Assembly: GCA_950295325.1 (NCBI GenBank)
Contig: OX485808.1
Location: 44,043,180 to 44,107,179 of the forward strand
From: Polytrichum commune
Lineage: Eukaryota > Streptophyta > Polytrichopsida > Polytrichales > Polytrichaceae
Direction of reading: 5' to 3'
DNA length: 64,000 bases
The position numbers were made by a program, and so were the translations under genes. Shown one piece after another: positions 2,229-38,537 of this stretch (the first letter of the stretch is position 1; every line of letters begins with the position of its first letter). The notes beneath the pieces are model-generated. The model ran no database searches, was not told the origin of the DNA, and saw only the letters and a program-made list of their open reading frames with translations.

Positions 2229-2256
2229 AACACTATATTCGTTAAATTGAGACTTT
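2229..2256 (+). repeat. left terminal inverted repeat
   Basis: This 28-bp repeat is identical to the reverse complement of 19313-19340. It is preceded by CTTT at 2225-2228. Confidence 0.75.
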
Positions 2257-2760
2257 CTCTAGTCTCAAATTAATATATGGATCAAACAACATTCCGTGTT
2301 CCGAAACTATATTGAGAACGATCTCAAATATATTATATGTTCTAATATCCCAAATCTATTATGTGTGGACATAAGCACATGTGGTAGAGCACTCAACACC
2401 AACTTCATCTACAAAAACACTTTGGGTAGAGCACTCCAAACTAGTTTCACCCAAGAAACATATAAAATGATTTCTATTATTAGCATGGTCAATAAAATAT
2501 AGACATTGCAACATACAAAGTGCATGCAATAAATGCATTTTTCTTCAATGGAAAATTTAGTCCCAAACTTAATAAAAAAAATGAACTTCACAACTGTATT
2601 GAAATATAGTAAATGGATATTCATCCAACCCCAAACAATATAGCATTCGCAAGTTCTACCCAAACTTTGCCCCAAGTTTGAGGAGCACACATATGAGTAA
2701 TATATATTCGTCGAATTACAGTTTACACTATAATCATGCTAACACAATCCTACCAACTTC

Positions 2761-5700
2761 TCATTCAACGTGGGTTGCTTCTTCTGCGATCCGAGCAAGG
2801 TTGTCTTTTGCAAAAGTTATGTACTTTTGAGGGATGGACACTGATCCACTATGATTTTTCCGTGGTTTCCATGCTATGAATATGGAATCTGTATCTACCC
2901 AAGATGGACCATGCTCAGAATCCACCTTCCACCGAAAGTTAGGGTTTGTATCCCAGCCTGTATAATGCCGAACAACATCTTCATTCCGTGCTGTCGGTCG
3001 GTAGTACTCTACTTGTATTTGTCGAAAATGAGGGCTGGAAGTTACAAAATTTGGTTTGGACAAAGCTCTTGCCACCCACACTGGCTTTGCATATGTCTCA
3101 TCTCCAGGACGCAAAATGAGCATATAACCTTCATGACAATCCACTGCAATGCGGAAAGATGGTGGCGGACGACTACTAGCAGGCCCCACGTAATGGTCGT
3201 CCACATCAAACTCCTCTCGAACCTCTCCATTTCCCAAAAGACTAGCCTCCGAAGCTTATACATTGACACGTGTTTGTGGCCAAAACCCATGCCTTAAAGT
3301 AAGGGGTGTATCTTGATGAAGGTTTGCCAAAGCGCCACGAACACGTGTCCAATATTGTATCCAACTTCCGTAACGAAGCCAACACGATCCACCAACATCC
3401 GCTACCCTCAAACTCTCCCAATATTGTATGAAGCCTGATATGCCTTTACAAATGTCCTCCAAATTCTTCATGGGTATTGGTTTGCAAGGCTTAGGCTCTC
3501 CGTCAGGCAACATCGTCCTTCCTTCCCCATCAACACGCCATACAAGAAGACCCTCCGGCAGGCTCCAGTCTTGTGATGTGCACAACAACTTGTATTGCAT
3601 GGCGGGGACACCATCGTCACGCACGTAGAACCGAAATTGTTGTGCCTTCGTATGCCCGATCAATCGGTGAGCTCCGCTTCGAATATACGGTTCTATAAAT
3701 GCCTTGAAGTCTGGAACCTCCTCAATCATATGGGGGATGACGGGAATGTTCTCCAAATCCATGTACGACTTCATCAACAATGGGATTGTTGGAAAATCCT
3801 CCTCGCGCAACTTCATGCTCCACCGCCCAAAGGACGCATCAATATCATCGTGCGTGTGGCCTACCAATAGAAAGGACACAAAAACCTCATTGAAAATGCC
3901 TTTCGCAACCAACAACGACCAATATGCAAAAACATATCTACTTTTATTGTCTTTCGCACAATTGTCCAATTGGACACGCAGAGTTGGGGGCAAATTCTTG
4001 GCAATCACATCTTCACTTGGTGGCTCCGGCAATGAGTGCACGCATACATCTCTTCCATCCAAGACCGCTTCATATAGAGGTGTTGATCCCGAGTTTTCAA
4101 ATAACAATCTTGATGAATAGGACGGCGGTTTCTCCAAATCACGTAAAAGCTTTGCAAATGACCCTATCGTGTGGTTTGAATCCGCCGGATACAAATCAAG
4201 AGCATAATGAGCATATTTGACATCACCATGCCCATGTGCAATCATTCCTGCAAAGGCAACCCAATGGTTTAATATTCAACTATAACACCAAAAAATTCAC
4301 ATGGTGTACATGTATGGCCCCAAGTACAAACCTAAACGCACAAATTTGTGTTTAGGTAATGCAATGCAATTGTTATCAAAATCACCTGTAACCGAAACAA
4401 GAAGCTTAAAAAGGCCGTCCGTGGCTTTGATTCGATTTGCAAAACATGGTGAGGCTGTTTTGGCATGGTCCATCTTGTCATGGATGATTGTAAGGACTTC
4501 CAAAGGCCTGGAGATGGACAAAGCTCTATTTGTGTAGTAATCATTACGGTGTGCCTCTTGCATGTTCACATGCTTGAAATAGTTCATTTGATGTGCGGCA
4601 TAGGACTCTGTCCCCATCGTGTGTGCATCTCGAAGGCGTTTCAACTTCTCGCATTTGGAACAACGGGCAAATTTGTCGCCTCGTCTTTTTGTGATGTATT
4701 CGCTAAAGTGAGATTTTTTTATAGCACTCAGTTTCGACAATGAAATTGGGTCCAACCCGGCCTTCTCGCCAACTGCGTTTACGTCCAACAATATGTCTTT
4801 CCATTTCGTGCCTGTAGGAAGAACCTTCTCCACAACCTTTTCACCGGTTGCGAGTGTGCGTGTTTTGTGCGGCATTGCATCGGCAAGGGGGACAATGAAG
4901 GTTGCCAAAGTGGCTGTTGCTTGTCTCGTTGCTTTTCTTGGTTTCTTTAAGCCCATGTTCCCATGGTGACGGGCACGGCGGCCTTCATTGGCATACGCGG
5001 CTTGTCTATAAAATTCCGCTTTCGACACACCATGAATGGTGTACCATGCCGTACAACACACGTCTATGCTCTCAAGGGTGATGACCTTGCGACCCGCTCC
5101 GTTCACATGTATCGCCCTATGGACATCAAGTTTTTTGGTGGATCTTAGACGGAAATCTCTAAGCCACATTTCTTCACGGATGGCCTTCAATTTATCTCTT
5201 GGGAACAATTGGCAACAACGATGTACACAACAATCCTTCGTAGCAACTTCTCTAATAGACTCCTCACAGAGCAACCTTTGACGTTTACACTTATTTGCAG
5301 ACGGAGTAGGACGTGTCAATGTTTCGTACTTCCGAAGGCCTTTGCGTGGCCGAATGTTTGCTTGGAGCTCCTGTTGGATTTGGACGTGTCGTCGCTCATG
5401 GTCGCGCAAGCTAACCCCCTCAATTGTCACATTCCTCAACGGCCACCTTCGCAACGAGAACCTATGAGTTGGATTGACTTCTAAATGTACGAGTGATTCT
5501 AATATAACAACTCCAACGTCCTCGGTGCCAAGGGGGTGTTCATCAATGCAATCTTGTGGATGTGTGTTACGACAAATACCCTCCGCCACAGCAACTCCAC
5601 TGTCATTAACAAGTACCACATCCAAATTCACCCATGAAGCTCGTGAAAGCCCCGCACATTCCACAATGGGGCAAAAAGGGTCAGATGGCGAAGAACTCCC

Positions 5701-5787
5701 CAAATGACCTTCATCTGCACTGTCATCAAAACTATCCTCCCCGACAATGTCTAGCTCATCCCCAAACAGAGATTGGGTGCTGCCCAT
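2761..5787 (-). CDS. DUF7869-type transposase-like protein
   Basis: Two exons are joined by a clear intron. Exon 1 (5787-4386) ends ...VSVTG and exon 2 starts at 4247 (GMIAHGHGDVKYA), with donor ACAG^GTGATT, acceptor TTTGCAG and phase 1. The protein has an acidic, low-complexity N-terminus, Cys/His clusters (CCVHRCC; RCSKCEKLKRLRDAH), and three acidic motifs in the order of an RNase H-like DDE enzyme: IIHDKMDHAKT, QLDNCAKDNK and VGHTHDDIDASFGRWS. This layout matches the family annotated as DUF7869 in algae, early land plants and invertebrates, which I believe to be transposon-derived. A TAA codon at 3258-3256 interrupts the frame after about 797 residues. The same frame then continues 165 codons to 2761 with good protein-like sequence (a BAH-like stretch around RPGDETYAKPVWVARAL). 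So either the protein stops early or the copy has one nonsense change. It lies at the left end of the TIR element, divergent from the ParB-like gene. Confidence 0.6.
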
Positions 5788-6030
5788 GTCTTAAGAGAAG
5801 GAATCCCCTCTTCCACCAACTCCCTCCATTACGCCTACACACATGCACATGAAACCTCAACAAACATGGACACAACGTAAGGGTCCAAAAGAATCAAATA
5901 TTGGAAAATGCAAAACATCACGATGAATGGGGACACTGAGGATCAAGACATTTGCAACACAAATGCAATGTGAGCTCCCAATACTGTGCGCCAGTCCACA
6001 AAATGTTCCACAAAATATTTTGGGTGGGAG
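5788..6030. promoter_or_regulatory. upstream region of the transposase-like gene
   Basis: This short spacer lies between the minus-strand start at 5787 and the palindrome array. As the region directly 5' of that gene it probably holds its promoter and leader. No core motif stands out. Confidence 0.3.
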
Positions 6031-7014
6031 TTTGGGTCGGCCGACCTAAACCCTGTGGCACCAGGGATTGAGGGCCATCTACACCTTGCCCGTGGGATAG
6101 GGTCGGGTTCCGGTCGACCGACTCAAACCTTGTACAATGATGGGTTGAGGGCCATTTAGAATTCCATCACACTGTGGGGAAAACTTTGGGTCGACCAACC
6201 CAATCCTTGTCATGGTCAACTACAACCGCCGAAACTGGGGAAGGGGTTTGGGTCGACCGACCCAAACTTTCACAGGGTAAACCCACCCACACTCAGAAGG
6301 GGTTTGGGTCGGTCGACCCAAACTTTCACAGGGTAAGTCCACCCACACCGGGAAAGGGTTTGGGTCGGTCGACCCAAACTTTCACAGTGTAAATCCACCC
6401 ACACTGGGATGAGGTTTGGGTCGCTCGACCCAAACATTACATATGATGGGATAAGGTTCCTACTCTGTCCGTCCAAACCTTCTGAGTACCTTGAGTAAGG
6501 GCCATTAACAATTCGTTCACGATGTGCGAAAAAGTTTGGGTCGACCGACCCAAACCTTCTAAAAGGTTTTACGATAAACGCCCACAGTGGGGTAGGGGTT
6601 TGGGTCGACCGACCCAAACCTCACAAGGGTCAGAGTAGACCCCCCCCCCCAACACTAGTGAAGGGGTTTGGGTCGACCGACCCAAACCTCACAAGGGTCA
6701 GAGTAGACCCCCCCCCCCAACACTAGTGAAGGGGTTTGGGTCGACCGACCCAAACCTCACAAGGGTCAGAGTAGACCCCCCCCAACACTAGTGAAAGGGT
6801 TTGGGTCGACCGACCCAAACCTCACAAGGGTCAGAGTAGACCCCCCCCCAACACTAGTGAAGGGGTTTGGGTCGACCGACCCAAACCTCACAAGGGTCAG
6901 AGTAGACTCCCCCCAACACTAGTGAAGGGGTTTGGGTCGACCGACCCAAACCTCACAAGGGTGAGACTCGAACCCGCCCACACTACTGGAGGGGTTTGGG
7001 TCGACCGACCCAAA
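6031..7014. repeat. array of 15 near-palindromes
   Basis: Fifteen copies of TTTGGGTCG-NN-CGACCCAAA start at 6031, 6108, 6185, 6247, 6303, 6359, 6415, 6535, 6599, 6667, 6735, 6800, 6866, 6931 and 6995. The first three are imperfect. Copies 4-7 recur every 56 bp, and copies 9-15 every 64-68 bp inside a longer unit that also holds CAGAGTAGA, a C-run of variable length (6-10) and an ACTAGTG hexamer. The two middle bases vary (GC, AC, GT, CT) while the 9-bp arms are kept. The array lies between the two divergent genes of the element, as expected for a shared control or recognition region. Confidence 0.9.
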
Positions 7015-7059
7015 CCTCACAAGGGTCAGACTGGAACCCGCCAACACTAGTGTCGACCG

Positions 7060-7101
7060 ACGTATAATACAGCGTATAATGCGGCGTATAATGCAGCGGA
7101 T
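7060..7101 (+). repeat. short tandem repeat (GCGTATAATGCAG)
   Basis: Three to four near-identical copies of CGTATAATGCAGC or CGTATAATACAGC follow each other at the right edge of the palindrome array. The unit contains TATAAT, but a promoter role is not shown. Confidence 0.6.
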
Positions 7102-9600
7102 ATTGAGAGGTGTGTGGAATTTCAGCTCATTGCAAAGTTCACTGCGGACTTGCATGCTGTGGATAGGTCCTCATGAACAGCAGCGTGAACGAACCTCGAA
7201 GTACAGCTCCGACTAAGAGTTCTCTCTACGAATTCAGGAGTGGGAGAAGAGCAAAAAAAAACCAACTTTTGGGGGGTGCGCCCCTTTATACTATCCACCT
7301 CCACTTGCCCGACTTCCTCATTGGATGCCTTTCCCGCCTTGTTATTTCAAACCTCCTGACAGAATTCCCCGTTTTCTGTTTATTGTAGAAAATGCGCATC
7401 TTTCAATGCCCCTCTCATACCCCAGCCGTCATATGATTTAGTCTATGATATTTAATCTTTTTTTGGTTTTGTGTGTATATGACATACGACATTGGGAGGA
7501 AGGGTGGCGGCCACATTAATTTTTTCAAGTGTCACAACGGTATATTTTAACCAATATGTATACCCAACCACAACTCCATTCAATGCTTTCAAGTGCAAAC
7601 CTATTTCGGTGGGGTTGGGGCCATTTGGAGGCTGCAATTATGAGAGAGTTTCCAAGGCTTGAGGCCATTGTCATGATGAATAAAATTATTTATTTGTCTC
7701 CCCTAAACCCTAAACCCTAGAACATTGCTCTATTATCTCGCATGGAAGTGTGGCAATGATAAACGTATGTAACACTATATTCGTTAAATTCAGACTTTCT
7801 CTAGTCTCAAATTAATATATGGATCAAACAAAAACTTCTACAATGTCACCCTAATGCATCATATACATATTAAATGATGATATTGATCTACTTTAATTCA
7901 AACATTACGGTATGGCATTAACCAATATGTAGACAAAAGAAGTCTAAACATTGTGTAACGCCTTTTGGTAAGAGTCACTAAATACAATAGTTAAAGTGGT
8001 TATGAAGATCCTCGCAAGGGGAATTATTAATTTTGAAATCAAATTATGTCATGACAAAGTTCATTTATTGTTCCAAATATGAATTTGCAACAATGCAAGT
8101 GACAAGAGCTTTTATATATAATATGTTGTCATCCCTAAACCCTAAACCCTACAATATTGTCCTCTTCTCTCGCATGCAAGTGTGGCAATGACGAATGTAT
8201 GTGGACGTCGATAAGGGGATACTAACTACCAATGTCGCTTTTTAGTTCAATATTTCCATGCTAATTGAATCCATCCTCAAGTTCACTTCAAGCTTACTAA
8301 TGTGTGTGAACAAAACATCCAAAGTTGAACCCTAAACCCTTATAACATCCACAACATGAAATTATACGTATTGACTAAACCATACACCAATTAGTATATC
8401 ATGTTTAGACGTTCCAAATAACATATTCACATGATCAAGATTGTGGTCACTATAACCTTCCTATTAGACTCTTCTTAATATATAAACAACATTTCTTATA
8501 TCTTTCTCCATTATCTAATATACGTGGAGGGAACAATGAACAACAACACGATTGCTTGCATGGCTTCATTTGATGTTGTGCTTAACCGATTTACGTTTAT
8601 ATCACATTCCATATATTAAATACATCACGAACCATAGTTTATTGGCGACTATGTGATTCATCAAAGGGAGCAAAACATCCAAAGTTAGACCCCTAAGTCC
8701 TAATAATATCCACAACATGAAATGCTATTTGAATAAACACAAGACCAATTAGTATATCACGTTTAAACGTCCCAAATAACAACTTAACATACTCAACATC
8801 ATCTTTACTATAACCTTCCTATAAGACTCTTCTCACCAGTAAGTCAATGTTGTACGTTAATATTGGATAGATTAATATGTTATAACCATGACTCCTAAAC
8901 CCTAAACCCTAAACCCCAAATGTTGTAGTTGTTCAGTGCTACCTCCATATACAAACAACATCAAGTTTGTCTTGCGCCATTATCTAATATACTTGGAGCG
9001 AACCTTCAATAACAACATGATTGCTTGAAGGGCTTCATATGATGTTGTGGTTCTCCGATTTGCTTTTATATCACATTCCAAGTACATATATCACGATCCA
9101 TGGTTTATTGGCGACTATGTGATTCATCAAAGTGAATATCTAGGGGATACCCTATAAAACTTGAGCATGTTAGCATTTTGAAATAAAGATCATGCAATTC
9201 CAAACCCTCACAATATGCACTTGGGGAAGGTATTCATTTAGGCTCCACATTCAAATATCCTCAATTTCCGAATTTCATGTTGGGGGGTGGGGATTGTCTT
9301 TTTTATTCATTGCATATTGTGTGAGTTGTTGGCATCAATGGTAAAGTCTATTGTATTTGGCACGTAATTGTATTTTTTTTATAACGTGCTCAAACAAACG
9401 AGAAACCAATGACTTCAACTTGTTTGGAAAATTTAGTTAATGGTGTCATGTAAGTAGGAATTAAGTATTAGTGTTAGCATAAAGTTGCGTTGTAAAGATG
9501 TATTAGTTGTATAAATGGTTTAGTTTTTTAGAATACCTCATTTGATGTATACCTTAGGCTACTCCAAAGTCTATTCAAAATTGTACTACCCGCTAAGGGT
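7102..9600. other. AT-rich spacer with telomere-box motifs and duplication
   Basis: No gene is supported. The stretch carries plant telomere-type CCCTAAA runs at about 7699-7717, 8141-8159, 8327-8338 and 8890-8915. The context around the first two is duplicated (…CTCGCATG(G/C)AAGTGTGGCAATGA…). A diverged tandem duplication links about 8326-8667 with 8680-9135: shared blocks include the CCACAACATGAAAT, CCAATTAGTATATCA, ACTATAACCTTCCTAT, TTATCTAATATAC and GGCGACTATGTGATTCATC segments. It may be the promoter-distal region of the long plus-strand gene. Confidence 0.55.
7771..7831 (+). repeat. internal copy of the element's left end
   Basis: Sixty-one bases match 2229-2289 with a single mismatch (position 19: C here, G at the true end), so the match covers the whole TIR plus about 33 bp of subterminal sequence. 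Its flanking four bases (ATGT) do not match the right flank (CTTT). It is therefore an internal duplicate or a relic of a nested related element rather than the functional left end. Confidence 0.8.
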
Positions 9601-9699
9601 TTACTCCTTAGAGGGATGGGAGTTAGGGTTCCCCGTAACCCTATTCCCGTTGCTGCCCTAATCACGTTGGCACCCTATTCGCGCGGTTGGGGGCCAATT

Positions 9700-10446
9700 C
9701 CCGAGGGTAACAAAACCCCAGCCGCCAAGCATTCTCCTCCTTTCTCTCTCTCTCTCCCGCCAACCTTTCGCTCCGCGCCTCTTGTGGAAGCGCCGCCTCT
9801 CCTGAAGCGCCGTGGCGATTCAGGGTGGCGCTTTTCTTTACATTCCTTCTCCACCCTTTTTTCTTCTCCTTCCCTCCCTTCTCTTGCTGTAGCGGGAGAT
9901 TGCACTAGTGTTGCAATATATAGCATTGTTGAAGTGTTTTCCAGATTGTTGAAGGGTTTTCCAACATTCTGTGTGAGCTTTAGGCAGTGCTTGCGAGAGT
10001 TCGAAGTGCGGATGAGTGCATGTGAGTGCTTGTGAGTGCATGTGAGTGCTTGTGAGTGCATGTGAGGGCTTGTGAGTGCATGTGAGTGCTTATGAGTGCA
10101 TGTGAGTGCTTGTGAGTGGTTGTCAGATTAGGAAGTTCTATAAGAGATACAAAAGTGCTTTCAGAGATTTAGTTATTGTTTTGAGAGATTCAGTTGTTGT
10201 TTTAACAGACTCAGTTGTTGTTTGAGAGTTACAATTGTTGTTTGAGTGATTCTGAAGAGACTCAGGAGTTGTGTGAGAGATTGTGGGTTTATTGAGAGAT
10301 TCAAGAAAGGTTTGAAATCTTTGGTAGTTGTTTGTGAGTTTTAGCGTGTCTGCGAATAGGAATTCACTGATTCTGTCTTAGTCAAAGAAGAGCACTTGTT
10401 CAAAAGCAACCATCTGCAACGACTACAACAGAAACCCTCAGCAAAG
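9700..10446 (+). promoter_or_regulatory. probable promoter and noncoding 5' exon
   Basis: A CT-rich tract (TCTCTCTCTCTC at about 9741) is followed by a 20-bp tandem repeat (GTGAGTGCATGTGAGTGCTT, about five copies, 10012-10116) and by GTTGTTTGAGAGATTCA-like repeats to about 10260. A GT donor (CAGCAAAG^GTATTG) at 10446/10447 faces a strong acceptor (TTTCTTTGCAG) at 10890, directly before the ATG of the long gene. This suggests a 5' untranslated exon. Open frames here look like low-complexity leader sequence. Confidence 0.45.
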
Positions 10447-10567
10447 GTATTGTTTTTCAAGGGGTTCCAATATGTGTTTCTTAATTGACAGTGTTGTAGC
10501 ATACACAATGCATAAGCATTGTATATGCTACATGCCAAGTTTTAAAAACTATATTAAAATAGAACAG

Positions 10568-10863
10568 TTTGGGGAGACGACCCAAACACAGCCTATAGTT
10601 TGGGTCGATCGACCCAAAGCACATCCTGCTGTTTGGGTCGGTCGACCCAAACGCAACCTCTACAGTATAAACTTTTCAAGAAATCCTTGATGACAATATA
10701 AAACGCAAATCCACCCAAGATAACGAAATACCATATAAACATATAAATGAAGTTCTAAAATAACAAGACACAATCCAAAAATAAATGCGTTGATGCATTA
10801 CATTTCCCTTCCATCACGTGACATCTAATCTATTGTGAAGAAGTTTGGGTCGAACGACCGAAA
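10568..10863. repeat. near-palindromes in intron 1 (4 copies)
   Basis: Copies lie at 10568-10586 (degenerate centre), 10599-10618 (perfect palindrome, AT centre), 10632-10651 (GT centre) and 10844-10863 (AA centre, one arm mismatch). All four lie inside the inferred intron 10447-10890. Confidence 0.85.
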
Positions 10864-10890
10864 CTAACATCCTTGCTTCTTTCTTTGCAG

Positions 10891-13800
10891 ATGGCCCCAA
10901 AGAAAAGACCAGGAGAAAGGTGGTTCATGCTTGCGCCAGACGTGTTATGGCAGGAGCACGAAACACCTCAGGATGACTCATATGTCCCTAAGGACGGGCT
11001 TGTCCTCGCCTGGTCAATTCAAGTAGTAAAAACCTCCATTTACAAACTGATATTCGTTGTCAAAGTAGGGACCGTGGAAAAACATACCTGGGCGACTCTT
11101 ACGGGATGGGAGGTGGCGTCGGTCCAGTCTTTTGGAGACTACGCAGACGTCATCCTTGAGAACAGCGCTGTGCAGAATGCTCATATGTTTCTGCACCAGT
11201 TCGTCGAACCCTTTGACGCTACATATGCAAGGGAGTCATGTGTCGAACCTGATGTAATCAAACCCGAGACAATTTTCATCGATGCCAGTACATCGAACAC
11301 AAAGGTCTCGAGCCGGTTTACGAAACTAAAGCATGCAATCAGCGTGCTCAACAAAGCCCTGCAGAGCAAAACGAAGTCTCAGCAAGCCGTCAGGCAGAAG
11401 GTACCCACTGAGGAAGGTGCAGGGTCGTCAAGGCCTCAATCGGTGAGGATGCCGCAACCAGTCCCGGCTAGCTCAAGACGAACCACTCCATCGGAGACAC
11501 CGGCGGATAGCCAGACTCCTACGCCTTCTGGCAGCCGCCAAACAACTCCCTCCAAGAGGGCGAGAGAGTCATTTGTGATGACTGACGAGCCAGTCTCTCC
11601 AGAATTGCGCATGCCGAAGCCAGGGCAGGAAGTGGATGTAGGGGAGATCCAAAAAATCGTGAACAATTTCACGACCAAGTGCTCCCATTGCTTTTTCATG
11701 GGCAGGGATTTCAAATTCGACGTGAACATCATTCAGTGTCATCTCGCGCCACCAGAAAAATGTGTCCGGGCAAAAGAAGACGCCTACGTCGATTGGATAA
11801 TCGCGCAGATCGTTAGCGAACAATTTAAAGACGACAGGCAAACCATTGTAGTGATGCCCCAGGGACTGAAGAAAATGCCTACCCCTGAAATGTGGGCGAC
11901 AATTCAGAAAGGCGATTTTTGGCTCATAGACGGCCAACACAGCGTTGAGGCTTCCAAGAAAATCCAACTGATGACTGAGTGGGACGATCCCAACCATCAG
12001 AAGGAGAAGTTGAAGGTGTGGAAGGCACTGGTGGTGTGGTCTGACGATGAGACCCGACTGAGCGACATCTCCCGTTACTTTAACATGGGGAATAAGAAAA
12101 GGGCCTACCAAGCTTCCTGGATAAGGAATATCATGGCCTCGCGGGAGGTGTGGGAGTTCTATGGTAGGCCTCCCAAGGAGAGGGAGAATGCAAAGGACAA
12201 GAATCCCAAGTGGGAGGTGAGTATTGTTTGGGTCGATCGACCCAAACTCCTTTTGCAGCTTTATTTGTGTACTTTGGGTCGATCGACCCAAAGTCTTGTT
12301 GCAGTCATGTTTTTTTAGTTTGGGTCGATCGACCCAAAGTCTTGTTGCAGTCATGTTTTTTTAGTTTGGGTCGATCGACCCAAACTCTTGGTGCAGGCAC
12401 TGGTCATGATATGTTTTGGAAATCACATGTTCATATCTAACATGCATTCAAATGATTTTTTTGATCACATGCAGGACTTCAAATACCAAATGATAAATAA
12501 ATTCTCCTCCATTGATAATGCTAGTCATAAACAGAAGAAATACAACGAGCTTAGAGGGGAGATTTATTTAATAACAGCATCCGACTCCGTTTGGATGAAG
12601 TGGAAGAGTGTATTTGAGAAGCATGAGACGGGTGAGCTCATCAACCCGGACACAGGAATTTTCTTCAACCAAACCACGCGCTTCAAACAAATGAAGCCTC
12701 TCGTGAGAGAGTTCTTTAGAACTCTTCAAGGCCTTTCCGAGACGGAGATGGAGAAGGCGGCGGCGCACATCCTGCATTTCACGCCCACGGCGAAAAGGTG
12801 TTGGGTGCACCCGAAGATTGTCTTCTTAAAGCCCAAATCCTTCGTCCCTTCATGCTACACCATGAAGGAATGGACTGAGAATAGGAAAAAGAAGACAACT
12901 ATAGTGCAGGAGCTGCATAAATTGGTGCCGGAGAGGAATATTGTCGTGGACGGCGAGGTTCATGAGGCTAACTGGAAAGCATTCAAAGCTGAATATAAGT
13001 TCACTAGTGCCTCCATGGCGGCTCTAATAAGGGAAGCGGGGGATGACTTCTTGCGGGCCAAGATGGTGAAGGGTGGGAAAAACCGGGCGCTTCCGGATCA
13101 CACAGCGCGTGCGTTCTTGAACTTCATCAAGGAGAAGAAGATTGTCCAGTTTGAAGGGGACGCTTACTTCAACCTTGTCACCTTCGAGCCTTTGAAAATT
13201 CAGGGTTGGCCAGGTCAAGACGCCAGAATGGCGATAAGGACGAAAGCAGGGGGGCGTTTCCCATTCGGAATGATAGATTTCAGGAACATTCCTGGAAGCT
13301 CATTTGAGGGTACGATGAGCACACTGTTTTACGACCCCTTCCTATCTAAGTTCGTCGATTATGCGAGTCCTAAGTTCAGGGAGGTTGATGTCTGGCTATG
13401 GATAGTCGAGGATAGGAGGGCGGAGCAGGTGTACGACCTTGTCCGGAAATTGCAGCCGGAGTATGCAGTCTCCAAGTCTCACTACATCGCCGCACCGGCG
13501 GAGGGGGCCTACACGTCGTTGAAGGACAAGAAGACCAAGGTCGTCAACGTCCTGTGTTTGTACTTCGTGTACAAAGCGGAGTTGTTGAAGGTGCCGAACC
13601 ACCCTATATCCCGGATGGACAAGCTCTTCCAAGTTCCAGATGGGTTAGGTTCCAGCAAATGCCTATACGACGAGGCCAAATACGCAAACTATCCTGCAGA
13701 TGAGCTGCGGATGGAATTCTACATGCGGATGCTGAGGACGCTGACTAGGAGAGGGGACTGTATCTTCAACGTGTTCGGGGGCTCGAAACCCCTCTATGCT

Positions 13801-16715
13801 GCCATGGTAAGTTACATTCTTTAGCTCTTGCGCAGTTTGGATCGGTCGACCCAAACTAGTCTCTCTCTTGGTTTGGGTCGGTCGACCCAAACTAGATATT
13901 GTTTTTGGTCTTGTTTTTTGTCTTGCAAATTCTAATTTCTATATAACTTGGATTGTGTAGATGTTGGGGTTGAACATCTACTCGTACATAGAGGATAGCG
14001 ATCTGCAATTTTACAGGACGCAGAAATCGCTGGCAAAGAAGATGGATATCCTCGATTGGATCCCGGGAAGCTACGTGGACAAGGTTGTTGAGGGGGGTGA
14101 GAACCCTCTTGATAGGGCGAGGCGGATCAACCCGGAAGAAATTGCGATGAGGGCAACAACCCAATTACCCGAACCTCTAGTCGGGTTGCATCCGGGCAAT
14201 CCGTCCCGTACAGGAGGTGGAGAGGTGGAAGAGGAGGAGGAAGAAGAAGAACACGGAGAGGAGGAAAAGGAGGGGGATGTGGAGGAAGGGGCAACGGGAT
14301 TCACGCAAGAATCTGAAGCCCCTCAGAGGAAGAAGGCTATGCGTGTGGCAACCCCGCAGAGTAAGATGATGCCCGTCCTTACGGTGGACGATGCGAGGGA
14401 CATGTACTCCAGGGACGCGACTGCCACGTTCCGGGAGAGGAGGAAGTTAAAGGGAAAGAAGCTCTATGGCGATTACGCATTGGAGGAGACCATTGCCATT
14501 AGCAGCGAGGACGACGACGACATTGAGCTCGCCAAACGGCTCAGATCGGATCCCCCTTCCCCGACAGCGTTCGCAGGCATGGTTAGGGTGAAACCCGAAG
14601 TCCTCACTGTGGAGGAAGCCAACGAGAAGATGCGTAGAGACGAGGAGCAGCGCGTCCGCCTGCAGAGGGCTGCCGCGGAAGAACCCTCCGTGCGGAACGA
14701 GGTCGCAGAGCTGAGGGCTCTCCTCTTGGAACAAGAAAGACTAAGGGCGATGGCCCAACCTCCATCCAGCACCGACTTGATATCGCAAGTCATACAAGGG
14801 ATGTGGGCGCAAGGATTGGTGGTGGCTCCATCCAGCTCGTTTCCGCACTTGCCCCCCGGTTTCCCAGCGCAGAGCATCCCTCAGCACCCAGTGTCGCAAG
14901 GGTCATTCAGCTTCCAGCACATGATGTGGCCGCCCCATGTTCCGTACGCGCCGGTCCAACAAGTGGACGATTCCAACATCTGGCGCGTATCTGGAGCCTC
15001 CTCCCCGTTGGGCCTTCCACCACTACGACCCCCCATAGTGATGGCGCCCCCTCACCAGCCGGACGATCCCAGGATGTTTGGGTCGACCGACCCAAACCCA
15101 CCCTCGACTGTAGTGCCCCAAGGCACCTCCCCCGATGCAGGACAGTTTGGGTCGCCCGACCCAAACCCCGGAGCAGCTCAGTCCTCCTTTGACGAACTTG
15201 TGTCTCAAAGAGACACAACCATGTTAGATGTTGAAGGCCTCCAAGGGCCTGGTGATACCTCTAATCCTAACCAAATCGATGAACCCATGCATGATGCATA
15301 TGCGGAGATTGGTTTAGGACAAGGGCCTGATGCTCAACCTTTGCAGGACAAGGTCCCTGATGTAGGCGGAGAAGGCGGTGGCGAGAGAGGTGGGGCACCG
15401 GGGACGGTGGAGGCATCCACATCGTCGAGACATGACCAGGGCGAGGTAACACACTGAGCCCTCCCAGTTTGGGTCGACTGACCCAAACCTCCTTGGTCAT
15501 TGTCTTGTTGGCGTGGTCTTGTCCCCCCTAGCTATGAGGAACTACACCCCCCCGACGCACCCAACAACGTGCTCCCCCCGCGATCCCCTTCGTCTCACCT
15601 CACTCGACTATGCTCAACCTTGGCGGCGCGCAACCAATTTTGTAGATGTACAATTAGGATAGTGTGAATGCCCTCGTTCACCGCGCCCCCCCCCCTCAAA
15701 TTGTACACAGAGATTTGTAACAATAAAATTATTATTTTTGGCGCCCATATGTTAGCATCCGTGTCCCAATGTATGTTGTTCCCCTTGTATGTTTTTGTTG
15801 CCACCAATGGTCCAATTCTTCTTGTGTTTGCACAAAATTTCCGTTCTGCTTGAATTAAACATAGCATAACATAGTCCTCGCCGCCTTCTCTCGCTCGTCG
15901 CCGCAGGGATCGGAGCATAGCGTCGTGGCTCCCCACCGGTCCTCCCCGAGGAGCGTGGAGGACAGCGCGGTGGTCCCCCCGATTTTGCCCTCCCCGTCTC
16001 CGCCGCCCAAGACACCGTTCCTGGTGCTAGACCTCAACGGGGTCCTCGTCCAGTGCGTGCACTGTCCCAAGGTCCCCACGGTGCCTTTCTGCAAGCCCGA
16101 GGACGGGAACTACGATGGTCCCCCCGCGTACATCAAAAGCAAGCTAGTGTACCTCCGCCTGTGGCTTCGGCGCTTCCTGCAGGTCGCCCTATCCAAATGG
16201 TGGGTGATCGGAGCTCCATGAAGTCCGAGAACACCCAGGCCGTCGTGGAGTTCATCTTCAAGGGACTCCAACCCCCGTGCTTGGTCCTAGGACAAGATTC
16301 TTGTAAAACATTATACACCCCCGAGGGCAGGGTTGTGAAGAAGCCCAACAACCCTGCCGTAAACCAATTTCTTAAGGTCTTGAAGCCAGTCGTATGGGAC
16401 CAGCGTCCGACCATGGTCGGCTGTCCCTACGACGTTCGTCCCACCCGTGACAACACGTTGATGGTGGACGACAGCGCTTCCAAGAACATTTTGAACCCGA
16501 CCTCGAACTTCATAGTTTGCCCCACGTGGACGGTCGAGAAGGTCCGAGACCGCTTTTTGTTAGACCTACTTAAGTACCTTCAAACGCTCGTGGGGAGCGG
16601 ACTACCCGTGCCCCGGTTCCTTAGTTGTAATCCGATAGGCGAAAGATACATGGATCCGAAGGACTATATGTACAGAGAGTTGTACTCTCACGCAAAATAT
16701 AATAAACTCATTTGA
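10891..16715 (+). CDS. ParB-like/methyltransferase-like/phosphatase-like fusion
   Basis: The ATG at 10891 sits right after a 3' splice site. Exons are 10891-12216, 12475-13806, 13961-15445 and 15907 onward, with consensus GT-AG borders and phase 0 throughout. Residues about 265-420 resemble a ParB/DGQHR domain: CVRAKEDAYVDWIIAQIV, then WLIDGQHSVEASKKI (D347), then ISRYFNMGNKK. Residues about 700-910 resemble a beta-class amino-methyltransferase: TLFYDPFLSKF (D729, in place of DPPY), then DCIFNVFGGSKPLYAAM (motif I, about 870) and NIYSYIEDSD. ParB-methylase fusions are known in phages and bacteria. Exon 4 is a charged linker with Glu-rich, coiled-coil and Pro-rich parts. Read without the last splice it stops at 15457. 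Spliced, it continues into an FCP1/NIF-like domain: FLVLDLNGVLVQ (second catalytic Asp is Asn), MKSENTQAVVEFIF, NTLMVDDSASKN. The frame slips by one base near 16209, so this domain may be broken. Activity of all three domains is unproven. Confidence 0.6.
12227..12384. repeat. four perfect palindromes in intron 2
   Basis: Perfect 20-bp palindromes (AT centre) start at 12227, 12273, 12319 and 12365, with a regular 46-bp spacing, inside intron 12217-12474. The sequence between copies 2-4 is itself repeated (CTTGTTGCAGTCATG). Confidence 0.9.
13836..13891. repeat. two near-palindromes in intron 3
   Basis: Copies at 13836-13855 (one arm mismatch) and 13872-13891 (both GT centre) lie inside the 154-bp intron 13807-13960. 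Confidence 0.9.
15077..15165. repeat. two near-palindromes inside coding exon 4
   Basis: Copies at 15077-15096 (AC centre) and 15146-15165 (CC centre) are translated in the same frame as FGSTDPN and FGSPDPN. They lie in a Pro/Gly/Ser-rich part of the fusion protein that tolerates extra sequence. Confidence 0.9.
15468..15487. repeat. near-palindrome in intron 4
   Basis: One copy (AC centre, one arm mismatch) lies within the inferred intron 15446-15906, as in the other introns of this gene. That supports treating this stretch as an intron rather than a 3' untranslated region. Confidence 0.85.
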
Positions 16716-16825
16716 GATACTACATGGTGTGCCATTGTGTGTGATATATTATGCCTCAATTGTATATCGATTTTCACATGCTCCCCCCTCCCCTTGGGTT
16801 TTGTTTGTTTTAATTTTCCCATCAG

Positions 16826-17182
16826 CGTTTGGAGCCCTCGATTGACATCGTCAGCGAATCAAACTTGGGGAGCTTCTTCTACGAGACCGTCTACGATGCC
16901 GCGTCCACCATCGACTACTCCAAGGAGCCTATTGACGCCGGCGTCGTCGATAGCCCCCCACCCAAGCAAATCTTCCCGCCATCTCCGTCCCCGTCGCCGC
17001 TCAAGGGCATAAATCGCAAATGCGTCCGGACGTCCCCCTCTCGGCCTGGCGGCAGTAGTACACCTCAACGGCGGCTGCGGATGGACGCTCGGCCTACGAA
17101 GAGTGGCACCCTTCCTATTCCTTTGCGGGACGCATTGCCCCTCCTCGCCAACTCCGACGGGAACGCCCCCGGTGTCGAGTAG
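16826..17182 (+). CDS. possible downstream exon of the fusion gene
   Basis: An open stretch follows a good acceptor (TTAATTTTCCCATCAG) and begins RLEPSIDIVSESNLGS, then runs through FFYETVYDAASTIDYSKEP into a Pro/Ser/Arg-rich tail ending at a TAG (17180-17182). It has no start codon of its own near the splice site, which suggests an internal exon. The exon before it ends in a stop at 16715, so the exact junction is unknown. Function is not recognised. Confidence 0.35.
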   Translation, partial: RLEPSIDIVSESNLGSFFYETVYDAASTIDYSKEPIDAGVVDSPPPKQIFPPSPSPSPLKGINRKCVRTSPSRPGGSSTPQRRLRMDARPTKSGTLPIPLRDALPLLANSDGNAPGVE

Positions 17183-18470
17183 AGAGGGTTCCGCCTTGGG
17201 AAAGCACTGGGCTTCTGGCTGCAACTAGATTTTATCGGACCCGTCGAATCTTCTTGTCTTCAATCGAGTCTTCTGCTCTTCTAGTCTTCAATTTCTTCAA
17301 TTTCTTCTAATCTTCAACCTCTTTCCCGTCGACCTATCCTGTTGCGGCTCTATATGGGTAAAGGGTAAGGGTAGTGTGATAAGAAACCACGGGCTTCGGA
17401 CGGGTAAAACGGGACGTCAAAACACGAGCTGACGTCCGAAAGATTGGCTCCTAAACTTTCAAACCCACGGTGACCAACAATCGCGCCTCACCAGTGGGAA
17501 CGACAGAAAACAACCTTGTGGGTGATCAATCCCACTTCGTTGTCACAAACAACCTTGTGGGTCATTAATCCCACTTCGTTGTCACACAGGAAACAAATTA
17601 CGATGCAGAAATGAAATGCAACTAGCCTCCAAAACCGGCTTGGAATCACACACACAAGAAAAAGACAACGTGCCACAAGCAACCACACATTCGAGTCTTG
17701 AAGCCTTCAATTCTTCAATCTGTCCGTCTTCTATGGTCGGTCGAAGTCTCAGCTCTTCTTTTAAGAACCAACAGACTTCCCTCCACTCAAACAAGCACAA
17801 ATCTTGATTGCTAACTTCCAAAACAACAAGTGAGATCTCCCATGAATCACAAATCCCTCGTATTTTATTTCATATTCTTCTAAAAAAAACCCACACCGTG
17901 AGCTTTGAATCCACTTCTCTCTCTCAACAACTTCCCTCCCACAATAATCACATAACATCTTTCCTTCACCACCTCTCCCTATCCATGCGAGAGACAAAGT
18001 TCTCTCTTATCCTCATCACATGGCTTCTAATCACCCATTGGTCCAAAGTAACTCAAGATAACTAAAAGACAAAAATAAACTATGAGTAAATAAAAAGGTA
18101 ATCTATTTCTATCATTTGGTAAAGGTAACTAAGAGTAACTATGAGTAAACATAAAGGTAAGCAACTTCTATCCACTTCTATCCTTAGGTAATGATAACTA
18201 AAATAAACTATGAGTAATAAAAAAAGTAATCTACTTCTATTCTTTATTATTTTTCTCCAAGACCAAGAATCACAATGCAATATTAAATACGTACACATCT
18301 ATATAGTGTACATATTTACATCACGACACCGGTGACAAGGTGAACCCCCCCCCCCCCAAAACATGGTTAACCGCGCATTACAATCATCCGGCACTTAAAA
18401 AATGAACGTGTGACACATTTGGGTCTTCCTCCCTAAACTAACACGTGTGTTCTTGCATTCACGCGTTGCA
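17183..18470. other. noncoding stretch with small tandem repeats
   Basis: No gene is supported. A 37-bp direct repeat (ACAACCTTGTGGGT…CCCACTTCGTTGTCACA) occurs at about 17511 and 17548. Three diverged copies of a roughly 60-bp unit (AACTATGAGTAA…GGTAAT(C)…CTTCTAT) span 18070-18240. A run of 14 C lies at about 18343-18357. It could be an intron between the two candidate exons on either side. Confidence 0.5.
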
Positions 18471-18804
18471 GGTTGCTCCCACCCGTAAACCTATGCGGGC
18501 TAGTACGTCCGTCGAGTTGGAGCGTTTCTACTCCATGACCAGAAATGCAAGACAGTCCACTTCATCGTATTCGAATTCTTCGTCGTATAATTCGGGCGGC
18601 CGACGGAATCCAAAATGTGTTATTGATGGCGGTCACCCCAAGAATGGCTATAGTCGCGGGGCGGAGATTTTCAGGAATGTTGAAGCAATGCGAGCAAAAG
18701 AAGCCGCAGCAAAAGAAAAAGAGGCAAAAGAAAAAGAGGCAAAAGAAAAAAAAGCACAAGAAAATGAAGCAAAAGAAAAAGAGGTAGTCTCCGAGGCTAG
18801 ATAG
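18471..18804 (+). CDS. possible last exon, charged C-terminus
   Basis: An open stretch after a consensus acceptor (ACGCGTTGCAG at 18470) reads VAPTRKPMRASTSVELERFY, then a Ser/Asn-rich part, then a Glu/Lys/Ala repeat (units of AKEKE) likely to form a long charged helix. The stop is the TAG at 18802-18804. It may be the 3' end of the element's fusion gene or of a separate small gene. No family is recognised. Confidence 0.35.
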
Positions 18805-18971
18805 GCCATAGTAGGCGTAGGGTTTTGGGCCATAGGCAAGAACATTTTGGGTCGCACTATCCAATGGATGTGTTGTGTTAGCATGCTATGCATTTTACAT
18901 GCCACACTTTGTATGTTTTTTTTTGCAATAATATAAGTGTCACATGATTTCCCCTTCCATATGGTCTAAGG

Positions 18972-19180
18972 TTTGGATTGCCCTACCTAAACCATCACAA
19001 ATATGAGTTTGGAATATTTTGTATGTTATATTATATTGGTTCACATATTTCCCCTTCAATATGATCTATGGTTTGGATTGCGCTACCTAAACCATATTCA
19101 TACAAGTTTTTGTGCGATAATATAAATGTTTTAAGATTTCCCCTTCAACTTGGCCTAAGGTTTGGATTGCCCACCCTAAA
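18972..19180. repeat. three decayed palindromes in a ~95-bp tandem repeat
   Basis: At 18972, 19072 and 19161 the sequence TTTGGATTG-CC-CTACCTAAA and close variants aligns with the palindrome, with mostly C-to-T or G-to-A differences. Each copy follows TTTCCCCTTC(A/C)A and a (T/C)(A/C)TA(A/T)G segment, so the unit is a roughly 95-bp tandem repeat near the right end of the element. Confidence 0.7.
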
Positions 19181-19312
19181 CAATCCCAAATATGAGTTAT
19201 TAATGGGGTTCTTCTAAACACCCGCTTCAAAGTGTTCGCATCTTACAACTTTCTCCAATATGTGTTCCATTTATCCTTGTTCTTATTTCTGTGATTGTCT
19301 CAAAATGCCCAA

Positions 19313-19340
19313 AAAGTCTCAATTTAACGAATATAGTGTT
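19313..19340 (-). repeat. right terminal inverted repeat
   Basis: This is the exact reverse complement of 2229-2256. It is followed by CTTT at 19341-19344, matching the left flank. Confidence 0.75.
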
Positions 19341-21799: not shown

Positions 21800-24700
21800 G
21801 AAGCCTACTTTCACAAAATGAGGAACCACTTGCACAGCTTTGAGAATAGAAGTTGTTTCTATCACTACATAAGCTTCTGTTTGTGTCTGTAACCACTTCA
21901 ACTCAGCACACTCTACAGTATGTTGAACCTCACATAGTGATACATTCTTACAAGTGCTAAATCTTTTGTGACCTTGTTTCTTTCTACATCCAATAAGCTA
22001 CATCGAAATAACAAACAAAGCTCACCATATGAAGTCCTCTCCTCTTCACCAACATCTTCCATTTGAATGGCAATTGAACTGTACCACTCTTTTCCATGGA
22101 ATTCGTGAGATGATCGTGCATACATAGGCCAGTCCCCAAATCGAGCACCATTGCCAGGATGTATAGCTAGTGAGCCATAAACCTGCAATACCTGGAATTG
22201 ACAAAAGGAAGCATCATATGTCAACAAATATGAACAAATATCAAGCCCAAAGATAAATACTGAAAAATACAAGATATCCAAAAATTTGAATTGGTCGACA
22301 TAATTTACTTACTTCAGCATCTTTCAAATTGTTGTCATGGGTGTAGGATTTCAAGGCCATTGCCAATTCCAAACCAATCTCTGGTTGTGCAAAAAGTATT
22401 CGTTGCAATTTGGTTGGATTTGAGTAGCTGGATGTGGCAATGCTGTCAAGTGCCAAAGTTCGTATGCGCAAGGTAGTTTGGTATCCGGCTAAGACATTTT
22501 GCCCAACCTCCACAGCCTACAATCCACTCAAAAAATTATAGATAGCATAACTACTTCAAATACATAATAAAATTTTGCATTATAAGCCCACTTGGTAGGT
22601 TTAAAGCATTAGGTTTGGATCATACCAAGTCTAGAGCTGTTGTTTTCTCAACAATGGGTGCAAAACCTTCTCTTTCTTGGGCATTTTTCCGAAGTGCTTG
22701 TAATCTTCTATTGTGCTTGACAATATAGTTGATATAGTCTTTTCAGTTGCTCCGTCTGTAAGCTGATTTCATTAAAGCTATATGCAAGTGCTCGTACAGA
22801 TTAGAGCTGTATTCAAATGGCGTACCAGACCTCCGAATTGCATCACTAAAATGGCTCATTGCATGGACTTTTACTAAATGAAAATATGATTTTTGCCATT
22901 TTGATAATGCTCCTGTAAATGCTTGAATTGCTCTGTGAAACCACAAACATCACATTACAGTTCATTAGAAAAAAGATGACTAGATCGTACATAATAAAAC
23001 TTACCATCTTCACAACACATAAAAAGGATTAACTGGATAAGCATCTAAACCTAGTTGGAATGCAATATACAAGAAGTCATCAATAAACTCTGCTATGAGC
23101 TGATCACTTACTCTTGCATGAGCTTATCCATATTTGCAAGGGATTCTTTAGTGTGTTCCTTTGATCGGCAAGCTTTCTCATACCACCTTAAAAATTTCAC
23201 AACAGCTTTGATGATATCCCTTCTGAACAATCCAATTATGCACACAGCAATCACCTGCACCACAATTTTGGATTATGTTAAATAATAATAAATACATTCT
23301 CAAAGTTTCTACATGTATTGAAATCACACCTAAATTTGAACACCTAAATCTTATTAATCATTATTTTTATTATATTAGTGACATAAATCTCATTTGCAAC
23401 ATAATTACTAACCTGCATTACTGACCGATGCTCAAAGGCTGCATAATTTGAGTTGGCAGTGAAGTATCCTCCTTTGTCTGTGCCAGGAACTCGGAACTCT
23501 GAAAATCTAGAAGAATTTTTAATGCAAAGAAGCCTTTGATCCAACTCAGGGAGAATGGCTACAGACGTTGAAGTTGCAATGCTTCTTAATATATCTACAA
23601 GTGTCTTAAACACTCCTAAATCTGACTGATGAAGCATGTCAACATTCACTGCTCTATAGGGATTACCAAATGTAGTATCTCCTCCTGCAAAGCCCCATAG
23701 AGCACACTGTTCCAACATGACAAGTAATTAGACAAATAAATTTGATCATATTTCAAAGATCTGCTTAATATATGCAATTAAATTTTCCTAGGTTTACAAG
23801 CAAAATACAAAACGAGGTAAGTGGCATACCTGTACAGGATGAATAGAATATTGTTTGGAAAGCTCAGTAGCCATAGATGGGGAAGAAATCTGAATCTCTT
23901 CTAAGAGCCTCTTCATTTCCATCTCTGTTCTATACGGGAATCTCTCCTGGACATCCCTCAATTTATCTGAAGGGCAAAAACACATGCTACAAGGAAGCAT
24001 ACACTTGTTTGTGTGAAAAGTACACGCAACCTGTAAAATTCAACATTTTTTTTATATTAGTAACAAGAAATTATAATCTCCAAAACTTCAAATGAAAATA
24101 CCAAAAAATATATATTAGAATCATTTATAACTTGTGTCAAAACTTGATATACCTTACAACCCTCTGGATGGTCACACACATATGAGTACAATCGAGGATA
24201 CACCCATCTCTCTTCACCATTAGGATCTGATAGTAAGATTCCGCTGCAGCAAACAAATACCATCAAGTTAGAATTGAAACAAACTCAACTTAGAAACAAG
24301 CATTTCAGCCATATAACAACAATTTGAAACAAAATTTTAGATCATGATTAGGCTTACGTTTTGCTAGCATCTTTCAATGGTTTTAAAATATGCTCCAAAC
24401 AACTCTGAAAAAGTTGCAATCTCTCCAAGTAGGTAGTTTCCGTAGATGGAAGTATGGGAAAAACTGCTAGAAGAGCATGTCCTTCATCCAGATATCTGTT
24501 TTCACAAGATATATTTCCAATGCTGAGCACTAAAGGATGCCCACTAACTTTTCCATCTTTAGACAGTGAAGTCTGATCGCTGTAAAGTATTAGTGGAGCA
24601 ATCACAGCACCTTCACTATTGACATGGTCCTGCAAAGACACAATAAGAGGGTTTAGAAAATGAGACATCATACATCAAAAAATCAAGATCTTGCAAAATA

Positions 24701-25333
24701 CCAAAATATCATTAGCTTGTAACTTACTTGCATTTGTTTCCACCAATTAGCTGTGCCAGGAGTTGAATACACCTTCTCATAGATAGCCAAATTCTTGGAG
24801 TTTGGGTATATTTCAAATCCTTCGGCTACAATAGGAGAAGAGAATAGAGATCCCAAAGCATCTATAGGATCTCGATAGTGTAAAATGTGCCCTTGAATAA
24901 GTTCTTGTTTCCAACCATCCGCTGCAGCTAATGTCTCTCCTTCATAGCTATCCAAATCAACACTTGATCTTACTGAAACATCTTTTAATTTAAAGCTTGG
25001 GTGAAAGAGGACTTGGTTGAATAGAACATTTATGTCTCTTATTGATAGACCACTGTTGTTTCTGCAAGTACGTATCCAATGTACTAGACTAAATGTAGAA
25101 TCATAAGGGACCTTAGAATCATCCTCTTGAAAAAAAGAAAAATCATCCACAGGAGACTCAGGAGACTCAAATACAAGAGGTGGTGGATCTAAATTCACAT
25201 GAAGTGGGGCAATAGTTGGACTTCTTGGCCTCTTGGAGCCACATCCCAAATACTTCTTGTGAGCACCAAGAGCCCTTGCATTCCCAAATCCTGTAGCTCC
25301 ACAAACACTACAACTAAAACTAAAGGCTTCCAT
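21800..25333 (-). pseudogene. Plavaka-like (KDZ) transposase gene, broken
   Basis: Nine minus-strand exons have consensus borders and compatible phases: 25333-24728, 24629-24358, 24243-24153, 24030-23830, 23706-23413, 23254-23112, 22932-22626, 22516-22313 and 22191-about 21800. The protein starts with a C2H2 finger (CSVCGATGFGNARALGAHKK), then WWKQMQDHVNSEG, LILYSDQTSLSKDG and HPLVLSIGNIS. These are followed by a CxxC segment (LPCSMCFCPSDKL…FPYRT), NVDMLHQSDLGVFK, and VKVHAMSHFSDAIRRSG with EHLHIALMKSAYRRSN, the ordered hallmarks of Plavaka transposases (KDZ group). An in-frame TGA lies at 22745-22743 where the next codons (KDYINY) continue the family pattern. Near 21925 the frame shifts before TVECAELKWLQTQTEAYVV. 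So this copy is disabled, although its splice sites are intact. No terminal repeats were found. Confidence 0.75.
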
Positions 25334-38408: not shown

Positions 38409-38537
38409 TTAGTTTTGAGATTTTTCTAACCCCAATCTAAATTTCCACAACACCTAGTATTTCTCCTTAACCCGGATTGAAAGCTAGCATGAGTTCCATT
38501 CATAGCAAGAACCCATCCTGCCAACCCTAGCAAACAA

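Follow-up and report, generated by a model that had tools for sequence, protein, structure and literature searches.

A repeated palindrome in a Polytrichum commune DNA transposon: a candidate binding site for an element-encoded protein

A 64,000-nucleotide stretch of the Polytrichum commune genome (assembly GCA_950295325.1, contig OX485808.1, positions 44,043,180 to 44,107,179 of the forward strand; hereafter the window) contains a DNA transposon that carries its own repeated DNA word. The word is a 20-bp near-palindrome, TTTGGGTCG-NN-CGACCCAAA, present in 21 exact copies and in 32 copies when up to four arm mismatches are allowed. All 32 lie inside the element (2229-19340). We interpret this 20-22-bp palindrome as a site where a protein encoded by the element would bind as a dimer, keeping the transposase promoter and its own gene active, a reading built on sequence patterns and on analogy with characterized transposons, to which we assign a probability of about 0.5.

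A scan of the whole window placed 21, 4, 1, 2 and 4 copies in the classes with zero, one, two, three and four mismatches over the 18 arm positions, respectively. No copy of these classes was found in the other 46.9 kb, which agrees, for the window as its scope, with the preliminary description of about 30 copies confined to the element and none in the remaining ~47 kb. First-order Markov simulations with the dinucleotide content of the window yielded roughly 0.1 palindromes per window with four mismatches and none with zero to three. Of five matches with five mismatches, two lie outside the element, in line with chance (2.0 expected). The same word emerged from a motif-blind count, in which every 12-mer with at least four window locations more than 1 kb from one another (twelve in all) proved to be a piece of the palindrome. 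Altogether, the window holds 59 perfect palindromes with 9-bp arms and a spacer of 0-6 bp (nested readings counted apart), and only 4 of these are unrelated to the motif. A palindrome-like stretch at 1287 was left out of the count, being part of a larger foldback in a short nearby element.

The copies are concentrated upstream of one gene of the element and in the introns of another. The first, on the minus strand, encodes a DUF7869 domain (139.6 bits against a Pfam cut-off of 26) and is a probable transposase gene, judging by where it lies in the element and by features typical of the family. The second is a long plus-strand gene whose three coding exons are joined in phase 0 by GT-AG introns. 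Palindrome density is 11.8 per kb in the region upstream of the DUF7869 gene (5788-7060) and 7.6 in the four modelled introns of the long gene, compared with 0.5 in the three exons of the latter and 0 in the DUF7869 gene. At up to three mismatches, none occurs in 2229-2760, the DUF7869 gene, 7061-10446 or 15907-18805. Both the 15-copy array and the occurrence of the motif in all four introns of the long gene (3, 4, 2 and 1 copies), as described earlier, were recovered here. Copies had also been reported elsewhere in the element, and these exist, with the correction that two of them (15077 and 15146) sit in coding sequence.

Conservation is strongest in the arms of the palindrome and partial in its centre. 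Tandem Repeats Finder reported units of 56, 65, 33 and 46 bp around it. Because the 56- and 65-bp units are related, agreeing in 16 of 30 flanking bases, they count as one setting, which gives three separate tandem settings, each centred on the palindrome: upstream of the DUF7869 gene (56/65 bp), the leader intron (33 bp) and the second intron (46 bp). That arms should vary less than flanks had been proposed as a check, and they do: in the 56-, 65- and 46-bp arrays, no substitution was found at 270 arm positions versus 54 at 535 flank positions (Fisher p = 1e-10, indicative only, as array copies are related by duplication). In one of these three arrays the centre varies as well, while the arms stay fixed. 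Over all 15 upstream copies, changes amount to 6/270 in the arms versus 161/525 in the flanks. When one copy was taken from each of eight regions, the information content was 1.91 bits for the arms, 0.77 for the centre and 0.38-0.43 for the flanks; a set of 13 copies that included six of the upstream array gave 1.80, 0.93 and 0.31-0.36, respectively. In both sets the rows are so few that the flank values are near chance level.

Among 27 strong copies, the central dinucleotide is AC in 13, GT in five, AT in five, and GC, CT, AA and CC in one each, so that 24 of 27 are purine-pyrimidine, and 23 of the copies have an outer G...C pair, which suggests that the true arms may be 10 bp long. The initial picture of conserved 9-bp arms around a free 2-bp centre thus stands for the conservation of the arms and needs revision for their length and for the centre, which is partly constrained. 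Flanks are mostly dissimilar between settings. Six of the 55 pairs among 11 sites share 13 or more of 30 flanking bases; the copy at 10632, in the 33-bp array, and the coding copy at 15077 have 17 of 30 in common, which hints at copying between places. The spacings within clusters (33, 36, 46, 56, 62-69 and 77 bp) show no shared helical phase. Losses at CpG sites (2/54, versus 7/378 changes at other arm positions) are too few to inform on methylation.

Near the termini of the element there is a diverged, asymmetric form of the palindrome with the consensus TTTGGANTGCNCTACCYAAA, found at four sites, of which one has 2 mismatches; as the four sites themselves supplied the consensus, zero mismatches to it are a matter of construction. 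All four point inward, in the same way relative to their own end, and their inner pairs are lost. When the two ends were aligned with each other, four short matches besides the terminal inverted repeat (TIR) were obtained at E values of 0.003-0.01, two of which correspond to the end-type site (85.7% over 21 bp, E = 0.01). The three right-hand sites are not independent, since each lies in one of three diverged ~100-bp repeats (18918-19198, 74-84% alike). A position weight matrix (PWM) of the 27 strong sites scored the four end-type sites at 7.4-11.9, whereas the maxima of simulated windows averaged 8.5 and went up to 13.2. A single weak site therefore carries little weight, and the case for them rests on orientation, placement and mutual likeness.

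On the mechanism we favour, the product of the long gene would, most likely, dock on the palindrome as a dimer. Bound at many sites upstream of the transposase gene and throughout the introns of its own gene, it would keep both genes transcribed, probably by countering host silencing and opening chromatin, in the way that VANC acts in VANDAL21 or TnpA in Spm. The diverged, oriented form at the termini would probably allow the same protein, or a partner, to mark the ends for transposition. We propose an element-encoded binder because the layout of upstream, intronic and tandemly amplified sites is that of VANC21 and VANDAL21, with Spm TnpA as a second model.

VANDALs are Mutator-like elements, for which a Mutator-like transposase is defining. 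The element described here differs from them in its 28-bp TIRs, apparent 4-bp duplication and DUF7869 gene, three pieces of which gave no Mutator-type match in Pfam at E values up to 1. According to Hosaka et al. 2017 (PMC5735166), VANC21 targets are located in the introns of VANC21 and VANB21 and in front of VANA21. They multiply through tandem repetition and reach high density in VANDAL21 only, where binding of the word by the element-encoded protein leads to loss of methylation. The P. commune element resembles this system in having a short word that is dense in its own element, that stands in accessory-gene introns as well as upstream of the transposase gene, and that has undergone tandem amplification; placement and amplification were read here from one element copy, and element specificity within the window only. 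In the Spm/En (CACTA) system, TnpA recognises sites close to the element ends and also activates Spm, and activation correlates with demethylation (PMC10398659, PMC2613891). That system has an element-encoded DNA-binding protein distinct from the transposase, as is proposed here, and repeated sites near both ends, for which the end-type sites would be the counterpart. However, CACTA sites are described as clustering beside the ends, whereas the best sites in our element are internal and intronic, and CACTA termini (CACTA...TAGTG with 3 bp) differ from AACAC...GTGTT with a 4-bp duplication. A CACTA word does occur 2 bp inside the TIR; by eye, the flanks mismatch at that boundary and the CTTT duplication is at AACAC...GTGTT. 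Fungal transposons with TET/JBP dioxygenases (PMC12730594) carry a probable anti-silencing gene of their own, as the present element may. In contrast to these, no dioxygenase match was found among the pieces scanned here, and aiming in our element would be via a DNA word.

Several observations weigh against an element-encoded dimeric activator. The VANC word is a 9-bp YAGTATTAY arrayed in one orientation and is not described as palindromic in PMC5735166, unlike the 20-bp dyad reported here. A host factor could be the binder. Pfam and NCBIfam searches of the long protein found no recognised DNA-binding domain, and two single-sequence structure models were unusable (mean predicted local distance difference test scores of 33.7 and 32.7). 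The inferred intron of the DUF7869 gene is without a palindrome, and two copies fall in the coding sequence of the long gene, where they share one frame (FGSTDPN at 15077, FGSPDPN at 15146). Relatives showing co-evolution of site and protein were not found in the collections searched, which presumably hold few eukaryotes.

A lead to the nature of the long protein is a short box, WLIDGQHSVEASKK, in its first coding exon. It weakly resembles DGQHR, the box of bacterial DNA-modification-associated proteins. In hhalign, a 202-residue piece matched a DGQHR profile at a probability of 35% over 16 columns, and the whole exon at 21%, while five shuffles reached at most 2.1% and six other proteins or pieces from the window at most 0.9%. 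This profile was made of 12 frames from 12 loci (two in one gene region) and a ParB profile of frames from 25 of 30 loci; in both, frames were picked by the box and not checked singly. The ParB profile gave 0.4% with the same piece, below the 6.7% of a Harbinger transposase from the window, and Pfam and NCBIfam searches matched neither a ParB_N nor a DGQHR domain in the long protein. The ParB-parS system would be comparable in its palindrome array, here alongside a long protein with a DGQHR-like box; against the comparison, the match to the DGQHR family covers no more than 16 columns and there is none to ParB itself. A more elaborate proposal, which we regard as quite improbable, is that a non-VANDAL lineage independently evolved addressed anti-silencing, with the long protein loading at palindromes in ParB fashion, spreading over the element, and marking the ends via the asymmetric site.

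Among the competing explanations, we consider it unlikely, though worth weighing, that the binder is the DUF7869 protein, which would use the internal copies for autoregulation of its own promoter or for titration and the end-type sites for transposition. The inverted end-type variants at both ends and the position of the main array directly upstream of the DUF7869 gene fit this explanation, but ~3.8-9 kb separate the best sites from the nearer end, the copies at the ends resemble the internal site poorly by PWM score, and dense sites in the introns of another gene are not needed. Transposons can use host factors, and a host transcription factor or chromatin protein, whose sites the element gathered for its expression, is a rather unlikely binder by our estimate. 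A long dyad with conserved arms would suit any dimeric factor; such a factor would, however, need sites elsewhere in the host, where the remaining 46.9 kb of the window, a small sample, contains none at up to four mismatches, and 18 fixed bases are long for a host factor site.

Explanations that dispense with a DNA-binding protein fare worse. That the word is a functionless selfish repeat, a palindromic micro-repeat or minisatellite multiplied by slippage or copying, is very unlikely in our view. Tandem arrays are present, two copies have come to lie within coding sequence, and similar flanks recur in some settings (16/30 and 17/30), so copying between places probably happened. Yet flanks changed by ~10% in the same arrays in which arms remained unchanged, most of the remaining pairs of settings have at most 12/30 flanking bases in common, and no copy lies outside the element within the window. 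Slightly less credible still are hairpins in the pre-mRNA of the long gene that act on splicing or stability. Such a role would fit the presence of copies in every modelled intron (four of four) and in one of three long-gene exons counted, as well as CTAAC directly after two copies (at 10864 and 18438), which resembles a plant branch point. On the other hand, 15 of the 27 strong copies lie upstream of a different gene, and of nine arm substitutions in the strong copies none is compensatory, three leave a wobble pair and six break the pair. Together with the loss of inner pairs in the end-type variants, these counts speak for a DNA site rather than an RNA hairpin. The preference for a dimer site over a drifting satellite, expressed in the preliminary description, thus gains support from fixed arms in changing flanks, differing settings and the lack of compensated substitutions; binding itself is predicted.

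Table 1. Coordinates of the transposon, its genes and its palindromic sites in the window
Feature	Position	Strand	Details
Whole DNA transposon	2229..19340		17,112 bp; 28-bp perfect TIRs; CTTT directly outside both ends
Left TIR	2229..2256	+	AACACTATATTCGTTAAATTGAGACTTT
End-type variant	2421..2440	-	TTTGGAGTGCTCTACCCAAA on the minus strand; 192 bp from left end
Probable transposase gene, DUF7869 domain	2761..5787	-	Pfam PF25273, E = 1.2e-40; frame interrupted near 3237-3256; no palindrome inside
Array of 15 palindromes	6031..7014		Upstream of minus-strand DUF7869 gene; units of ~56 and ~65 bp
Inferred leader intron of long gene	10447..10890	+	Palindromes 10599, 10632, 10844; shortened copy near 10567; drawn from splice-like signals only
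Long gene, first coding exon	10891..12216	+	Holds the DGQHR-like box
Intron with four palindromes	12217..12474	+	46-bp tandem array; 12227, 12273, 12319, 12365
Long gene, second coding exon	12475..13806	+
Intron with two palindromes	13807..13960	+	13836, 13872
Long gene, third coding exon	13961..15445	+	Palindromes 15077, 15146
Intron with one palindrome	15446..15906	+	15468; or 3' untranslated region if stop at 15455 is used
NIF/CTD-phosphatase-like stretch	15907..16715	+	PF03031, E = 1.3e-4; 22.2 bits vs cut-off 21.8
Weak palindrome	18418..18437	+	4 mismatches
Weak palindrome	18846..18865	+	3 mismatches
End-type variant	18972..18991	+	TTTGGATTGCCCTACCTAAA; 349 bp from right end
End-type variant	19072..19091	+	TTTGGATTGCGCTACCTAAA; 249 bp from right end
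End-type variant	19161..19180	+	TTTGGATTGCCCACCCTAAA; 160 bp from right end
Right TIR	19313..19340	-	Inverted copy of left TIR

The apparent 4-bp duplication at the ends of the element is supported by a short non-autonomous relative of 361 bp (1094-1454), whose ends show 4 and 8 mismatches to the TIR and which has ATCT on both sides; inside this relative, TTTAGGTCGACTCAACCTAAA forms the centre of another foldback. Within the element, a second copy of the left end is present at 7770-7831 (98% over 62 bp), for which a good matching right end was not seen. Repeated blocks with plant telomere-like CCCTAAACCCTAAA words occupy 7694-9135. CCCTAAA words, which are of the plant telomere type, and the Pfam matches to transposon proteins suggest a plant or alga as the source. 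The frame of the DUF7869 gene is broken near 3237-3256, and the gene is perhaps not intact. In the long protein, no domain exceeded the Pfam or NCBIfam cut-offs before the NIF-like part, and one sub-threshold Pfam match was to GHBP (E = 0.0015, 18.5 bits versus a cut-off of 24). The NIF/CTD-phosphatase-like stretch is apparently captured; its first part is in frame with the long gene, and the frame is interrupted near 16200. Among solved structures, a DUF7869 piece had no match, and the first coding exon of the long gene had one weak match, to transcription factor EB (E = 2.5), which was not used.

Searches beyond the window were made in sequence collections and in the literature, with subscription papers mostly outside the latter. 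Prokaryotic genome contigs yielded one motif match, in a Rikenella metagenome-assembled genome, which is taken as chance, ~3.7 matches being expected in 257 Gb by simple arithmetic. Viral contigs, a collection presumed poor in eukaryotes and so weakly informative, contained no match to the palindrome or to the TIR, while searches with two exons of the long gene gave no pattern match in one case and two unconfirmed ones in the other, and a DUF7869 piece gave one, also unconfirmed. Literature searches with the exact motif strings showed neither a description of the site nor a full 20-mer among the matches listed, and the site was not described among the matches listed for transposon-encoded binding or anti-silencing systems; a search on DUF7869 found no paper.

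Other features of the window include a weak Plavaka-transposase match at 24683-25333 (E = 0.0012, below the family cut-off), a PIF/Harbinger-type transposase at 27029-28450 (DDE_Tnp_4, E = 6.7e-24), a 46-bp tandem repeat without the palindrome at 35030-35333 (6.6 copies, 94% matches), a piece of reverse transcriptase at 38537-39142, an open frame with RNase H and PCIF1_WW matches at 44188-46434, and a weak phage-integrase (tyrosine recombinase) match at 50935-51687 (E = 6.6e-4, below the family cut-off).

If an element-encoded protein does recognise the palindrome, self-addressing of transposons by a private DNA word, located in introns and ahead of the transposase gene, would be a convergent strategy that extends beyond the Mutator-like elements of Arabidopsis. 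As the word is long and nearly invariant, its binder, targets and off-targets are directly testable with one oligonucleotide and one protein, and the palindrome could serve as a highly specific means of directing chromatin state.

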